Source of the DNA: an uncultured Mailhella sp.
GTDB lineage: Bacteria > Desulfobacterota > Desulfovibrionia > Desulfovibrionales > Desulfovibrionaceae
Length of the DNA stretch: 41,286 bases
Assembly: GCF_944324995.1 (NCBI RefSeq)
Contig: NZ_CALUYL010000028.1
Location: 1 to 41,286 of the forward strand
Direction of reading: 5' to 3'
Shown here: positions 34,316-40,421 of the stretch, piece by piece
Layout of the letters: each line of letters starts with the position of its first letter
Numbering within the stretch: the first letter of the stretch is position 1
Made by a program: the position numbers and the translations under genes
Notes under the pieces: generated by a model
Told to the model about the DNA's origin: nothing
Seen by the model: only the letters and a program-made list of their open reading frames with translations
The model's database searches: none

Positions 34316-35033
34316 TTTATGCCGCGCTGCCCCCGCAGCGGACGGACGATGCCACGACGGCAGCCTTGCGCCGTGCCGGGCGCTGAACGCCGCGCTCCAT
34401 CGGAGTCAGAACAGTGCCGACGCGGGGCGAGAACGACGCTGCGCCTTCCCGAATGGAATCCGACGTGCGCCTCCAAGCTGCCATGCGCCGGAAGAATAAA
34501 CGACGCGTGCGGGAAGGCCGCCGCGCAAAACCGAACCGAAGCCCGGCATCGACCAACGGCCGCTCCTGCGGCGAAGCCGGACAACGCCCTCCGCAGGCGG
34601 CCCCTGCTTCCGGAGCCTGACCGAAACCTTATCTCCCCGCCTGCTCTCCGCCTGCCGCTAAAGAAATGATGCGGCACACTCTGCGCTTTGCGCCGCGCGG
34701 CAAGCCGCCCCCCCTCATCCCGCGCTCCCCACGCTCCCGCACGCTCCCGCACGCGCCTGCAAAGCGGCCTGCTGTTCCGCCGTTTGCAGCGCAACCTCAT
34801 TCGGGCTTCGTGTTGCGCACAACCTCGCGCGCACCAGCTCTCGGCAAGTGTGCGCAGCCTCCAGAATGCCACGCTCTCGCCATGCCCCCCTTCCGCCGCC
34901 TCGCCCGGGTGCCTTCATGCGCCGTCACGCCTCCCCCGCGCCTTGAATTTCTGAAAATTTTGTCAGGATATCGCCCCTTCGGCTTGCTCCGCGTCTCCAT
35001 TCCTGTTATTTTGAAATGGAAAGGAGCGCTCCC
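34316..35033. other. 718-bp GC-rich spacer before modB
   Basis: No gene is supported; the frames are Arg/Pro/Ala-rich and featureless. It has a 10-bp unit repeated twice exactly (34731-34750) after a near copy, and a long hairpin CTGCAAA-GCGG...CCGC-TTTGCAG (34757-34789). The last 60 bp turns AT-richer and carries the modB ribosome site. Confidence 0.45.
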
Positions 35034-35714
35034 ATGGAATTTTCCCTCTTCGGGCAGCAGTTTTCTCTGTTTCCCATCATGCTGTCGTTGAAAGTCGCCG
35101 GATTGTCCACTCTGGCCTCCCTCGTGCTCGGCACCCTTACGGCCCGCATTCTCGCAAGGCGACGCTCCGTCTGCGCGGCCGTCATTGATTCGCTCTGCAC
35201 GCTTCCCATGGTGCTGCCTCCCACCGTGCTGGGCTACTATCTCATTCTGCTGCTGGGCAGAAACGGCGTCTTCGGCCCGGTGCTGCAAGAGCTCGGCCTT
35301 CAGTTCATGTTTTCCTGGCAGGGCGCCGTGGTGGCGGCCACGGTCGTGGTCTTTCCCCTGATCTACAAGTCGGCGAAAACCGCCCTTGAACAGGTGGACG
35401 CCAACGTGGAAAAGGCCGCCCGCACGCTGGGAGCCTCGGAAATCGCCGTGTTCTTTTCCGTCAGCCTGCCGCTCGCCGGACGCGGCATTCTTTCCGGGGC
35501 CATGCTGGCCTTTGCCCGAGGCATGGGCGAATTCGGCGCAACCCTCATGCTGGCCGGCAACATTCCGGGCAAAACCCAGACTCTCGCCCTCGCCATCTAC
35601 GACGCCTTTCAGGCCGGAAACGACGCGCTGGCCGCCGGGCTCGTCATCCTGACTTCGTGCATCTGCGCCGCCATTCTCGTGACCGCCGACTATCTGCTGG
35701 GAGGTTCCCGGTGA
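35034..35714 (+). CDS. modB: Molybdate ABC transporter permease ModB
   Basis: The 226-residue inner membrane protein has about five to six helices. The cytoplasmic coupling (EAA) loop ANVEKAARTLGASEIAVFFSVSLPLAGRG (about residues 123-151) is typical of ModB. AAGGAG lies 7 nt before ATG 35034. Its stop overlaps the modC start (GTGA). Together with ModC and the periplasmic ModA encoded downstream on the other strand it would import molybdate or tungstate. Confidence 0.95.
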   Translation: MEFSLFGQQFSLFPIMLSLKVAGLSTLASLVLGTLTARILARRRSVCAAVIDSLCTLPMVLPPTVLGYYLILLLGRNGVFGPVLQELGLQFMFSWQGAVVAATVVVFPLIYKSAKTALEQVDANVEKAARTLGASEIAVFFSVSLPLAGRGILSGAMLAFARGMGEFGATLMLAGNIPGKTQTLALAIYDAFQAGNDALAAGLVILTSCICAAILVTADYLLGGSR

Positions 35715-36529
35715 TCGATCTTTCCGTTCAAGCCACGCTCAAGGGGCGGCACGGGGCCTTTTCCCTCGACGTCAGCCTCAAAAGTTCCGCCTCGCGTCTG
35801 GTGCTCTTCGGCCCTTCCGGCTCGGGCAAAACCCTCACCCTGCAAATGATCGCCGGTCTCGTTCATCCGCAGTCGGGGCACATCATTACCGACGACGCCG
35901 TGTTCTTCGACTCCGAAAAAGGCATCGACATGCCCGCCCGCAAACGCCGCATCGGCTACGTGTTTCAGGACTACGCGCTCTTTCCCCACATGACCGTCCG
36001 GCAGAATCTCGCCTTCGCCCTGCAGCAGCAGGAAAAGCACGTTCCCGTTCTCGGCAGCGCCTTTCGGGCCATGTTTCCGGCCAGACTCAGCGACGAGCAG
36101 GAGGCCTCCCTTCAGCTCATGCTCGACCTTCTGGAAATCGCTCACCTTGCCGACCGCAGGCCGTCGCAGATATCCGGCGGACAGAAGCAGCGCGTGGCCC
36201 TGGCCCGGGCGCTGCTCATTTCTCCGCGCCTGCTGCTTCTCGACGAACCCTTTGCCGCGCTCGATCCGCTGCTGCGCATCCGCATGCGCAAGGAAATCGC
36301 CGGCATTCTGGACAACTGCGGCGTGCCTCTCATCATGATTACCCACGACCCGGAAGACGTGGACGCCTTTGCCGAAGACCTCGCCGTGTACGCCGACGGC
36401 CGCATTCTCGCCATGGAGCACAATTTTCACACGCGTTCGCTTTTCGCGCAGGACTCGCTCTCCTACCTGTCCGACATTCTCACCAGAGGCGGACAGGCCG
36501 AACGCCCCTTCGGCTTCGACGACGTGTGA
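35711..36529 (+). CDS. modC: Molybdate ABC transporter ATPase ModC, short form
   Basis: The 272-residue ATPase has Walker A GPSGSGKT (34-41), the Q-loop in GYVFQDYALFPHM, signature ISGGQKQR (154-161), Walker B LLLLDEPFAALD and switch histidine ITHD. It starts with GTG at 35711 overlapping the modB stop. It is about 80 residues shorter than E. coli ModC (352). It ends soon after the ATPase domain and appears to lack the C-terminal TOBE/Mop molybdate-binding regulatory domain. A short insert (about residues 105-130) follows the Q-loop. Confidence 0.93.
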   Translation: MIDLSVQATLKGRHGAFSLDVSLKSSASRLVLFGPSGSGKTLTLQMIAGLVHPQSGHIITDDAVFFDSEKGIDMPARKRRIGYVFQDYALFPHMTVRQNLAFALQQQEKHVPVLGSAFRAMFPARLSDEQEASLQLMLDLLEIAHLADRRPSQISGGQKQRVALARALLISPRLLLLDEPFAALDPLLRIRMRKEIAGILDNCGVPLIMITHDPEDVDAFAEDLAVYADGRILAMEHNFHTRSLFAQDSLSYLSDILTRGGQAERPFGFDDV

Positions 36530-36705
36530 GCCGCCGCGCAGCTCGCGTTGCTCTTTCCGACCGCAGGCGCTTCCGGTACAAGTTCCGGTGCGGGCTCCGG
36601 CTCAGATGCCGACAAGGCGTGGACGACGCCGTGCCGACGCTCCGGCTTCCGCATGCCGGGGCAAACGGCAAGCGCATCTTGCTGCGTCGCCTCTCTCTCA
36701 GAAGC

Positions 36706-36738
36706 AAAAAAGCCGCCCCATCCGAAGACGGGACGGCT
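36706..36738 (-). terminator. Minus-strand terminator beyond modA
   Basis: On the minus strand GCCGTCCCG pairs imperfectly with GGGGCGGC around TCTTCGGAT and is followed by six T's (complement of 36705-36711). It is the first T-tailed hairpin after modA. Confidence 0.65.
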
Positions 36739-36913
36739 CGATGGCGACGTCGTCAGGAACCGACGGGATCTGCACGGCTTCTCTGAATCTCTTTTCGGAA
36801 TGCGACGATTCGGCCGGACGCTGCAACAGGGGGTTGTCCGCAGCGCCGCAGGAACGGCTTGCGCAAGGCCGCAACCATCCGCAATGTTTCCGAAATCCGC
36901 CGCCGCGCTTGAG

Positions 36914-36945
36914 TGCCGGGCAACGCCGTTTCGCATTGCCCGGCA
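36914..36945. repeat. Perfect 10-bp hairpin after modA
   Basis: TGCCGGGCAA (36914-36923) and TTGCCCGGCA (36936-36945) pair fully around 12 nt. There is no T-run on either strand. Confidence 0.6.
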
Positions 36946-37003
36946 GACACGGAACTTTGTTGACGCAGCGTTTTGTTTTCCGGCGCGTTATGTGCGGAAT
37001 GTT

Positions 37004-37750
37004 CTACTTCACCGGACTGAAACCGTAATGAGCGAGAATTTCAAGACCTCTCGGAGACAGCACGAAGTCCACGAACTTCTGAGCAGCCTTTCTGTCGGCG
37101 CTGTTTTTGGCAACGGCAATGGGATAGCACACCGGTTTGTGGCCGGTCATGGCCGTGACGATGCGCACGTCCTTGCCACCGGCAAGCGCGTCGGTGCGGT
37201 ACACGAAGCCAGCGTCGGCCTCGCCGCGCTGAATGTAGCTCAGCACCTGACGCACGTTGTTGCCGAACACGAATTTGCTCTGCAACGCCTCCCAGGTTCC
37301 GGCGCTGGTCAGCGCTTCACGGGCATAGCGCCCGGCGGGAACGCTCTCGGGCGTGCCTATGGCTATGTGCTTCACGGCGGCGTCGGCAAGCCCGTCCGGG
37401 CCGGTCAGCGTTCCGTTTGCAGGAGTGATGAGCACAAGATCATTCAGGGCAAAGTCCCTGCGCGTGGCGGGATCCACCAGCGACTTCTTCACGGCCGAAT
37501 CCATGGTTTCCTGATCGGCCGAGGCGAACACGTCCACCGGAGCGCCCTGCTCCATCTGACGAAGCAGATTGTTGGAAGACGCAAAGTTCAGGTTGACCTT
37601 CACCCCGGTTTCCTTCGTGAACTCCTGCGAAATCTGCGTGAAGGATTCCGACAGGCTCGCAGCCGCGGAAACCGTGAGTTCCGCAGCTTTCGCCGCGGAT
37701 GCGGCAAGGCCCAGGGCAAGAACAAGGGCAAGGGCGGCAAGTTTTTTCAT
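37004..37750 (-). CDS. modA: Molybdate-binding periplasmic protein ModA
   Basis: The 248-residue protein has a signal peptide (residues 1-22, cut after AKA). The ModA fold is visible in ELTVSAAASLSESF (oxyanion-binding Ser residues), VNLNFASSNNLLRQMEQGAPVDVFASAD and the later GEADAGFVYRTDA. It captures molybdate or tungstate for the ModBC importer. The gene is on the opposite strand to modBC and has its own promoter, so binding protein and importer are not co-transcribed. GAGGAGG precedes ATG 37750. Confidence 0.95.
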   Translation of the reverse strand: MKKLAALALVLALGLAASAAKAAELTVSAAASLSESFTQISQEFTKETGVKVNLNFASSNNLLRQMEQGAPVDVFASADQETMDSAVKKSLVDPATRRDFALNDLVLITPANGTLTGPDGLADAAVKHIAIGTPESVPAGRYAREALTSAGTWEALQSKFVFGNNVRQVLSYIQRGEADAGFVYRTDALAGGKDVRIVTAMTGHKPVCYPIAVAKNSADRKAAQKFVDFVLSPRGLEILAHYGFSPVK

Positions 37751-38754: not shown

Positions 38755-38970
38755 GTCGCCCCGCTCCTCAGGACTGCAACGCCGGCTCGCCCGCCGTCCA
38801 TTTCAAATGTTCCGTCGGCAATACTCCCTGCCGTCCGACGCAGCACAAGAACGTGGAAGCCCCGCCGACTCGAAAAACACCAGGCAGCCGACGACCGAAA
38901 GGTCATTTCAAAATAAATTTTCCGCGCAGCGCCTCCCTGTTCCGTTCATAAGCCCACGCGCATGCCAGTT

Positions 38971-39066
38971 TTACAATAGAAAAAACTTTTTTATTGTAAT
39001 TTTTCCATTACAAAAAATAAAATATATGATGTTTTATTATCAGATATGAAACACAATGATATTGTG
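38971..39066. repeat. Inverted-repeat array with TTACAAT/ATTGTAA core
   Basis: There are three dyads. TTACAATA (38971-38978) pairs with TATTGTAA (38992-38999). The same central TTGTAAT (38994-39000) pairs with ATTACAA (39007-39013). CACAAT (39052-39057) pairs with ATTGTG (39061-39066). The shared ATTGTRA core suggests a regulator array 60-160 bp upstream of the promoter. The AT-rich setting raises the chance of random dyads. Confidence 0.55.
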
Positions 39067-39129
39067 ATTTAAGTTTCAAAGCATTTTTCTGCACTCTGAA
39101 AAAAGTATCATTAATTTTCCTTTTATATC

Positions 39130-39158
39130 TTGACGAAAAAATTCTGTTTCAATATGCT
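39130..39158 (+). promoter_or_regulatory. Promoter of the molybdopterin-binding gene
   Basis: TTGACG (39130-39135) and TATGCT (39153-39158) are separated by exactly 17 bp. The expected start near 39165 puts the folded leader about 20 nt from the mRNA 5' end. Confidence 0.75.
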
Positions 39159-39187
39159 TATAGCAAGTTTTCGAGTCTGTCTCTGCT

Positions 39188-39280
39188 AAAGCATTATGCC
39201 ATGCAGACAGTCCTGAACCCCCAGAGGCTCACAGGGTAAGGCGGGAAACGGCCTTGCCTCCATTAAATGCTTCGGCATGG
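39188..39280 (+). promoter_or_regulatory. Candidate riboswitch (molybdenum/tungsten cofactor type)
   Basis: A closing stem AAGCATT (39189-39195)/AATGCTT (39266-39272) encloses two hairpins. One is CCTGAACC...GGCTCACAGG (39212-39235, with internal loops). The other is a perfect 8-bp GGTAAGGC/GCCTTGCC (39235-39242, 39251-39258) with loop GGGAAACG. A hairpin ATGC-TTCG-GCAT (39267-39278) competes with the closing stem and is a possible expression switch. The position before a molybdopterin-domain gene and next to a molybdenum enzyme suggests a Moco/Tuco-class riboswitch (Rfam RF01055). The family match is from memory of its features, not from an alignment. Confidence 0.6.
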
Positions 39281-39389
39281 AAAGAAAACATGGATGAACG
39301 ACGCGGTTTCGCGTTCTTTTCCGGTTCTGTCTCCGCAAAAGTCCGCGCCGCGGTCATGCTGCTGTTTCTTCTATCGACGAGCCTTTTCT

Positions 39390-40421
39390 ATGTCCAAAAT
39401 TTCCATGAAAACCATTCCCGTCTCCCAGGCCGTGGGCACGGTGCTCTGCCACGACATCACCCGCATCGAACCCGGCGTGCAGAAAGGACCGGTGTTCCGC
39501 AAGGGGCACGTCGTCCGGGAAGAAGACATTCCGGTTCTGCTCAGCGTGGGCAAGGAAAATCTTTACGTGTACGAACCCCTGCCCGGTCAGGTGCATGAAA
39601 ACGACGCCGCCGTGCGCATCGGCAACGTTGCGGCCGGTAAAAACATCGAGTTTTCCGAAATCAAGGAAGGCCGCATCAACTTTCTCGCCGCCGAGCACGG
39701 CCTGCTTCGCGTGGACGAAGCCGCCCTCTCCCGCGTGAACGCCTTTGACGACATCGTGCTCGCCACGCTGCACACCATGCAGGAAGTGCAAAAAGGTCAG
39801 GCCGTGGGCGGCACGCGCATCATTCCCCTGCTCATCGAAGAAGAGAAGATCGCCCGTCTGGAAAGCACGGTGAGCGGCCCCGTCATCGAGGTGCTGCCCT
39901 TCCGTCCGTTCAAGGTGGGCATGGTCACCACCGGCAACGAAGTTTATTCCGGACGCATCAAGGACGCCTTCGGCCCCGTGCTCCGGCAGAAATTTGAAAG
40001 TCTCGGAAGCAGCATTCTCGGACAAAACTTTTCCGACGACTCCATCGAGATGACCGTGCAGGGCATCCGCGACTTCATCGCGCAGGGCGCCGACATGGTG
40101 GTCTGCACGGGCGGCATGTCCGTGGATCCCGACGACCGCACGCCCGCCGCCATCCGCGCGGCCGGCGGCAAGGTGGTCACCTACGGGGCTCCCACCTTCC
40201 CCGGAGCCATGTTCCTGCTGGCGTATATCGACAATATTCCGGTACTCGGGCTTCCCGGCTGCGTGATGTACCACAGGGCGAGCATTTTCGACCTTGTGGT
40301 GCCGCGCCTCCTGGCCGGGATTCCCGTCACCCGGGAAGACATCGTGGCGCTCGGCCACGGCGGTTTCTGCGCAGGCTGCGGCGAATGCCGCTATCCGAAC
40401 TGCGCCTTCGGCAAAAACTGA
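39390..40421 (+). CDS. Molybdopterin-binding domain protein with Cys-rich tail
   Basis: The 343-residue protein has a SAF-like N-terminal half (TVLCHDITRIEPGVQKGPVFRKGHVV) and a MoCF/MoeA-type pterin-binding domain from about residue 175. The latter includes VGMVTTGNEVYSGRI and the GADMVVCTGGMSVDPDDRTP loop. It is shorter than MoeA and lacks parts of its domains. The C-terminus ends in a four-cysteine group C327-x2-C330-x2-C333-x4-C338, which could bind zinc or an Fe-S cluster. The start at ATG 39390 is taken because similarity begins at MKTIPV (39405); ribosome sites near both are weak. It lies 80 bp before the molybdenum hydroxylase gene and probably helps insert or handle its cofactor. Confidence 0.85.
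   Translation: MSKISMKTIPVSQAVGTVLCHDITRIEPGVQKGPVFRKGHVVREEDIPVLLSVGKENLYVYEPLPGQVHENDAAVRIGNVAAGKNIEFSEIKEGRINFLAAEHGLLRVDEAALSRVNAFDDIVLATLHTMQEVQKGQAVGGTRIIPLLIEEEKIARLESTVSGPVIEVLPFRPFKVGMVTTGNEVYSGRIKDAFGPVLRQKFESLGSSILGQNFSDDSIEMTVQGIRDFIAQGADMVVCTGGMSVDPDDRTPAAIRAAGGKVVTYGAPTFPGAMFLLAYIDNIPVLGLPGCVMYHRASIFDLVVPRLLAGIPVTREDIVALGHGGFCAGCGECRYPNCAFGKN

Follow-up and report, generated by a model that had tools for sequence, protein, structure and literature searches.

A Moco-type riboswitch leader before a molybdenum aldehyde oxidoreductase operon in Mailhella, with a predicted translational ON platform

The window analysed here is a stretch of 41,286 nucleotides from an uncultured Mailhella sp. 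of the Desulfovibrionaceae (contig NZ_CALUYL010000028.1). Close to its end, a folded leader precedes genes for a molybdopterin-binding protein and a molybdenum hydroxylase, and an earlier sequence-only reading had proposed that this leader is a molybdenum- or tungsten-cofactor riboswitch. The locus raises the question of whether the leader belongs to that family, which of the two cofactors it would sense, and whether the cofactor would turn its genes on or off.

The aptamer and its operon

In a search against Rfam 15, positions 39157-39303 of the forward strand match RF01055 (Moco RNA) over the full length of the model (1-135) with 63.3 bits, 27 bits above the gathering score of 36, and with an E value of 4.5e-13 for the window, far beyond chance. 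The other above-threshold Rfam 15 matches in the window are six in number, and every one is a tRNA. The leader almost certainly belongs to the Moco-type riboswitch family. The RF01055 search, which the sequence-only reading had itself proposed, thus supports its assignment, and a folded leader is present where it had been placed. Its extent had been drawn too narrowly at 39188-39272, as the aptamer runs from 39167 to 39289. The receptor region in P2 agrees with the Rfam consensus, and the GGAAAC that carries the GAAA tetraloop on P4 is invariant in all 25 aligned family RNAs.

The alignment comprises 25 of the 27 matches from the family; L017 (27.5 bits) and L018 (26.3 bits) lie below the cut-off and were dropped beforehand. 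RNAalifold finds 32 pairs in these RNAs, 15 of them with compensatory change on both sides, and these changes fall in P2, P3, and P4. Across the 24 distinct rows, 97.1% of the cells are paired and the covariation score is 0.308 vs 0.111 in shuffles. On paired cells, on doubly changed pairs, and on the covariation score, none of 500 shuffles comes as high; on further pair types, 5 of 500 do. P1 is identical in every row and therefore provides no covariation evidence, while P5 lies outside the counted structure and draws no covariation support. The P3 stem occurs in 23 of the 25 RNAs, is missing from L012 and L016, and carries one A-C mismatch in the window. The P1 strands GUUUUC and GAAAAC (alignment columns 11-16/143-148, 25/25) are more constant than pairing alone requires.

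The individual helices of the sequence-only reading fared differently. Its hairpin at 39235-39258 is P4, and the covariation check that it had asked for finds changes on both sides in 5 of its 10 pairs. The UUCG hairpin at 39267-39278 is also present, as the tip of P5 and a part of the aptamer, but it is no competitor of the true closing stem. That stem is P1, 39167-39172/39284-39289. The closing stem proposed at 39189-39195/39266-39272 is rejected: all seven of its pairs form in 2 of 25 RNAs (the window and its own species), it is paired at 67.3% vs 67.4% in shuffles, which is chance-like, and its covariation score is equalled or exceeded in 434 of 500 shuffles. It connects the P2 tip with P5, a link that is probably coincidental.

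The riboswitch heads a two-gene operon that encodes a protein with a molybdopterin-binding domain, followed by a molybdenum aldehyde oxidoreductase (MOP), and the matches to PF00994 and NF045668 confirm both genes as they had been read. The MOP fragment in the window scores 460 bits with NF045668, and a complete copy from the same species reaches 1637 bits, the cut-off being 1100. The MOP gene seems to be divided between the end of the window contig (G000 C28) and the start of another contig of the genome (G000 C12). The PF00994 protein has the C-terminal motif CxxCxxCx(Y/F)PxCxF (CxxCxxCxYPxCxF in the window), which can be read in a forward frame at 75 of the 80 related loci, and which is perhaps a metal site of a maturation factor. 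The target had been considered less usual for such a riboswitch. It is not, as genes for Moco-using proteins are already listed among Moco RNA targets in PMC2408646. The placement before a Moco enzyme operon agrees with the typical targets of the family, which are operons for Mo transport, Moco synthesis, or Moco enzymes, and the window leader adds a well-supported Moco RNA whose operon target fits the known list.

The genome of the window has 2.9 Mb in 44 contigs and contains two Moco RNAs. The second, at C1:41576-41717 (L001/L028), scores 70 bits and precedes a ModA-like binding protein, a permease, and an ATPase, which are separate from the modA/modBC of the window. In the window, modB and modC on the plus strand face modA on the minus strand at 35016-37750, 1.4 to 4 kb upstream of the operon. 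The genome encodes MoaA (above cut-off) and one aldehyde:ferredoxin-oxidoreductase N domain (AFOR_N). A search of it for ModE gave no match, with a positive E. coli control.

Table 1. Features of the leader and operon in the window (positions of the 41,286-nucleotide stretch)
Feature	Position	Strand	Remarks
Conserved upstream box ATTGTGATTTAAGTTTCAA	39061..39079	+	first 12 bases ATTGTGATTTAA upstream of 8/8 class B leaders
Sigma-70-type promoter TTGACG-17-TATGCT	39130..39158	+	9/12 matches
Moco RNA, whole Rfam match	39157..39303	+	RF01055 model 1-135, 63.3 bits
P1, 5' strand GUUUUC	39167..39172	+	identical in 25/25 sequences
P2 hairpin, tetraloop-receptor-like internal loop	39175..39212	+	7/11 P2 pairs changed on both sides
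P3 hairpin, Moco-type mark	39214..39231	+	4/5 consensus pairs form in the window
P3 3' strand AGAGGCUC, predicted to pair with the ribosome-binding region in unliganded RNA	39223..39230	+	minimum-energy fold
P4 with GAAA tetraloop at 39245-39248	39234..39259	+	5/10 pairs changed on both sides
P5 hairpin, UUCG loop at 39271-39274	39260..39280	+	folds in single sequences
P1, 3' strand GAAAAC	39284..39289	+	identical in 25/25
Expression platform, 100 bases from P1 to start codon	39290..39389	+
Ribosome-binding region CGAGCCUUU	39378..39386	+	GAG core 8 bases upstream of ATG
First gene, 343 aa, molybdopterin-binding domain PF00994	39390..40421	+	75.3 bits vs 26.6
Second gene, molybdopterin-dependent aldehyde oxidoreductase (MOP), cut by contig end	40502..41286	+	NF045668 best match

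Leader classes among relatives

Among 288 genomes of the family, 17 match RF01055 and 15 are above the cut-off; 10 of these 15 fall among the 19 genomes listed for the window's genus, its own genome included. The cut-off is passed by 16 of 348 genomes of the order and by 76 of 395 genomes drawn from the phylum. All three of these large searches apply stricter filters, which lose weak matches. By these counts the Moco motif is widespread in the phylum and has a patchy distribution in the Desulfovibrionaceae. PMC3766115 describes MOCO as ubiquitous in gamma-proteobacteria and sporadic elsewhere.

The class B leaders, to which the window belongs, comprise eight loci in eight genomes, two of which are one species (the window, L025, L014, L022, L027, L008, L013, and L019). 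They stand before the PF00994 protein, and MOP comes next in every stretch that extends far enough. In Rfam score the window ranks second from the bottom among the eight, and the lowest value, 60.4 bits, comes from the other genome of its own species. All eight leaders share the same -35, a 17-base spacing, and a TAT(G/C)NT -10 that ends 8-9 bases upstream of P1; the promoter with exact spacing that had been read at 39130-39158 is confirmed. The region 38900-39500 contains five promoter-like sites, this one included, where 0.9 are expected. The transcript should start at, or just upstream of, the P1 5' strand. Two upstream boxes, ATTGTGATTTAA(A/G)TTTCAA at 39061-39079 and AAAAAAGTATCATTAATTTTCC at 39099-39120, show few changes across the class B leaders, and the former resembles a CRP/FNR-type site.

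The ten class A loci precede a ModA-like binding protein. One such protein was scanned, and it scores 60.2 bits with TIGR01256, just below the cut-off of 62.5, and has a Pfam SBP_bac_11 match. A permease and an ATPase follow in the six long class A stretches that contain the whole gene (L028, L029, L036, L038, L040, and L042), and in L021 the binding-protein gene is truncated. The class D leaders (L012 and L016) lack P3 and precede modA. The class C leaders (L003, L015, and L004, in genomes G108, G095, and G174) are Moco RNAs with P3 that stand 250-500 bases before an aldehyde dehydrogenase; L009 and L020 have a leader of this kind followed by a short reading frame as the sole feature seen. 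Classes A and C have an element further downstream, GTTTTC-N(2-3)-TGTGAGC (e.g. L001:1676-1691), which repeats the P1 5' strand and complements GCTCACA of the aptamer; it is a possible anti-aptamer.

A survey of PF00994 genes kept 80 related loci of 271. A Moco RNA precedes the gene in six of them, namely in five of the six Mailhella-named loci and in Desulforadius tongensis. It is absent upstream of the gene (64% identity) in L103, Candidatus Mailhella excrementigallinarum, and from the other 73 loci, and a general link between Moco RNA and the PF00994 gene was dropped. With a criterion of at least 45% identity on the same strand within 1 kb, MOP directly follows the gene in 37 of the 80 loci and does not in 41, and in two the contig ends too early.

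Expression platform, direction and ligand

A moaA-type platform, with the ribosome-binding site inside P1, is not found in the window, as P1 ends at 39289 and the start codon is at 39390. In the class B leaders the start codon lies 86-100 bases past P1, GAGC precedes the ATG in all eight, and its GAG, a weak ribosome-binding core, is 6-8 bases upstream of the start. In the minimum-energy fold of the window, AGAGGCUC forms an 8-pair helix with the ribosome-binding region. ViennaRNA ensembles were computed for 24 leaders, either free or with the aptamer pairs forced, and the region from -14 to -5 was scored; every fold is a calculation without ligand, tertiary contacts, or transcription kinetics. 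L004 has no close start codon and is therefore outside this set, and in the remaining class C leaders the short reading frame supplied the start codon. In the free ensemble, the probability that the start region pairs with the aptamer is 0.49-0.90 in 8/8 class B leaders, whereas it is 0.00-0.06 in 14/14 class A and C leaders, and 0.00 and 0.21 (L016) in class D. In the window, bases 39224-39230 pair with the scored region at 0.93-1.00, and the pairing of this region to the aptamer is 0.73 in the free RNA and 0 when the aptamer is forced. Forcing the aptamer raises the unpaired probability of the start region in 7 of the 8 class B leaders (from 0.27 to 0.46 in the window); the accessibility is unchanged in L019, at 0.20 and 0.20.

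The unliganded fold is more stable than the aptamer fold by 2.6-12.7 kcal/mol in 8/8 class B leaders (8.6 in the window) and by 0.5-1.5 kcal/mol in 9 of 10 class A leaders. A stability gap also exists elsewhere, at 6.1 (L005), 5.0 (L003), 4.4 (L015), 6.3 (L012), and 8.9 kcal/mol (L016). When bases -30 to -1 were shuffled, the pairing was as high in 7, 0, 3, 0, 9, 8, and 7 of 100 sequences for seven class B leaders, L025 being omitted because it hardly differs from the window; taken by itself, the window gives a modest result, at 7/100. Swapping in start regions from class A and C leaders mostly abolishes the pairing, with means of 0.00-0.18 and a highest single value of 0.58. The sequestering strand is not conserved, since it is a P3 strand in the window and L025 and a P5 strand in the other six, and the folding tests are not independent because the class B leaders are related.

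Pairing of the start region to the aptamer in all eight class B leaders, and hardly in the 14 sister leaders, predicts a translational ON switch. Transcription would begin at the foot of P1. In the absence of cofactor, the weak P1 and P5 would fail to hold, and aptamer strands (the 3' strand of P3 here, the 5' strand of P5 in the other six of the eight) would pair with the GAGC region and sequester it, and translation would be low. Binding of Moco would close the aptamer, take up the sequestering strands, and leave the ribosome-binding region free, so that the enzyme and its likely maturation partner would be made. We regard a two-gene operon under a Moco-type translational ON switch as moderately probable. 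Such a leader would probably restrict the making of the molybdenum enzyme and its partner protein to times when the cofactor is available.

The usual OFF arrangement of Moco riboswitches has to be weighed against this reading. In it, a ligand-stabilised P1 would let a hairpin at 39296-39316 with UUUU terminate transcription, or would block an upstream frame that opens at 39290. A hairpin GAACGACGCG-GUUU-CGCGUUC-UUUU can indeed be drawn by eye downstream of P1, E. coli moaA is regulated in the OFF direction according to PMC2408646, and terminators are present before related operons, a clear one of 11 pairs and six T in L161 before MOP and one seen by eye in L120 before the same two-gene operon. 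However, the terminator scan omits the 39296-39316 hairpin and reports for the window one weak site at 39350, where 0.6 are expected by chance; the hairpin drawn by eye (39296-39320) occurs in one species, and by eye none of the other six genomes has it in its platform. The ATG at 39290 is present in 4 of 8 class B leaders, and the upstream frame was dropped as a general mechanism for this reason. Moreover, it makes little sense for a cofactor to repress an enzyme that requires it. The OFF reading is thus judged unlikely, and the translational ON switch is kept as the preferred one.

The ligand itself is addressed by P3: according to PMC2408646, RNAs with this stem go with Moco and those lacking it with the tungsten cofactor. 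The absence of P3 that marks the tungsten variant is not observed in the window, where the hairpin at 39214-39231 forms 4 of 5 pairs, and its presence favours Moco over the tungsten cofactor as the ligand. G295, a genome of the same order, agrees with this rule as a natural Moco/tungsten pair of RNAs as read here: its P3 RNA (L048/L161) precedes MOP, and its P3-lacking RNA (L050) precedes an AFOR_N enzyme. The tungsten cofactor as ligand would suit the AFOR_N domain in the window's own genome, a mark of tungsten enzymes, and the RNA that heads this operon in Desulforadius tongensis (L120), which seems to lack P3 as read here and fits the rule less simply. Against it stand the two RNAs of G295 and the P3 stem, which the window shares with most family RNAs (23 of 25), and we consider a tungsten ligand very unlikely. 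Least probable of all is that the aptamer is intact but a protein does the sensing, or that the element is decaying in the window species. The A-C mismatch in P3, the two lowest class B Rfam scores (63.3 and 60.4 bits), both from this species, and the fact that in PMC2408646 direct binding of Moco had yet to be demonstrated for a Moco RNA, that of E. coli included, would agree with it, but the aptamer core is conserved and the RNA precedes the same gene in eight genomes, two of them of one species. Direct binding of Moco is the prediction retained here.

Other lineages and comparison with known systems

The same two-gene operon stands behind a Moco-family RNA in Desulforadius tongensis of the Clostridia (L120:5783-9918). 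This RNA scores 48.4 bits with a model built in this analysis, and it is followed by a clear hairpin and T run that is seen by eye and was missed by the scan because its loop is longer than allowed. In G295, a Moco RNA and a terminator-like hairpin of 11 pairs precede MOP by itself. Counting Mailhella, three lineages thus have family RNAs at the head of MOP operons, and their platforms differ. A distant family of four genomes (f19) has 17 Moco-family RNAs. RNAs that lack P3 as read here precede [NiFe]-hydrogenase operons in 4/4 of its genomes (L199 by scanning; L200, L204, and L208 by sequence likeness) and aldehyde dehydrogenases in 3/4 (L197, L201, and L203), with TupA-like transporters, AFOR-like genes, and a molybdopterin oxidoreductase in addition. 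A hairpin with a T-rich tail is found within 95 bases past the aptamer in L198, L199, L202, L208, and L209, is weak in L200 and L201, and was not found within that distance in L197, L203, and L204. The hydrogenase part is not new, since PMC9481103 reports tandem tungsten-cofactor riboswitches before hydrogenases.

The class C leaders of the relatives concern another aldehyde enzyme. The dehydrogenase of G095 matches PF00171, and its nearest NCBIfam is ExaC at 619 bits, below the cut-off of 900; those beside the other two class C leaders were matched by blastp. The class C dehydrogenase belongs to a molybdenum-free family, and G095, G108, and G174 also encode MOP elsewhere in their genomes (27 genomes searched). 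The link is not general, as a Moco RNA occurs at 2 of 30 fetched aldehyde dehydrogenase loci, the third class C case (G108) being outside that set. The G174 leader has a good hairpin of 12 pairs with a T run, but the antiterminator, when forced, comes out 8 kcal/mol weaker than the fold with the terminator, so that switching there is unproven; the L031 and L035 leaders have weaker terminator-like sites only. Moco RNAs before a molybdenum-free aldehyde dehydrogenase suggest a cofactor-dependent choice between aldehyde enzymes. It is a tentative idea, and more doubtful than the ON switch itself, that Moco RNAs act as an aldehyde toggle, ON for MOP in Mailhella and turning the ExaC-like dehydrogenase of the relatives off when Moco is plentiful. 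The seemingly P3-lacking RNAs of f19 on aldehyde dehydrogenases and [NiFe] hydrogenases run parallel to it.

Adenosylcobalamin riboswitches control B12-independent isozymes. PMC3766115 names a category 'Isozymes of B12-dependent enzymes'. The proposed class C logic is alike, in that an RNA of cofactor type would control a substitute enzyme that does without the cofactor, but the aptamer and ligand are different, and the parallel concerns the related genomes and not the window leader. If the dehydrogenase cases hold along with the ON direction, Moco RNAs would, like B12 riboswitches, govern a change from metal enzymes to metal-free substitutes, and the aldehyde metabolism of these sulfate-reducer relatives would be tied to the molybdenum supply.

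In the literature, a search joining Mailhella and riboswitch found nothing, the main text of PMC2408646 does not name Desulfovibrio and has aldehyde once, in a reference, and the passages of PMC2996986 used here contain nothing on Moco. A separate, bis-MGD-dependent activation of torCAD is proposed in PMC10845959. The leaders of aorA in Pelobacter carbinolicus are likewise predicted molybdenum-cofactor riboswitches before aldehyde-oxidising enzymes (PMC3543383), but these enzymes are tungsten aldehyde:ferredoxin oxidoreductases, a family unlike that of the window. The Tuco/Wco tungsten-cofactor variant has the same core, without the P3 that the window contains (PMC2408646). The closest described relative, the Moco RNA of E. 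coli moaABCDE, resembles the window leader in its P1-P5 fold, GAAA tetraloop, P3, and position as a 5' leader (PMC2408646), and PMC12121620 reports that it modulates termination. In contrast, the E. coli ribosome-binding site lies in P1 and that of the window about 90 bases past it, and the E. coli RNA is an OFF switch over cofactor synthesis, whereas the window leader is predicted to be an ON switch before a Moco enzyme operon (PMC2408646 for E. coli). If the ON direction is true, the Mailhella leader would give the opposite output to the E. coli member of the same family, through an aptamer that sequesters the translation start.
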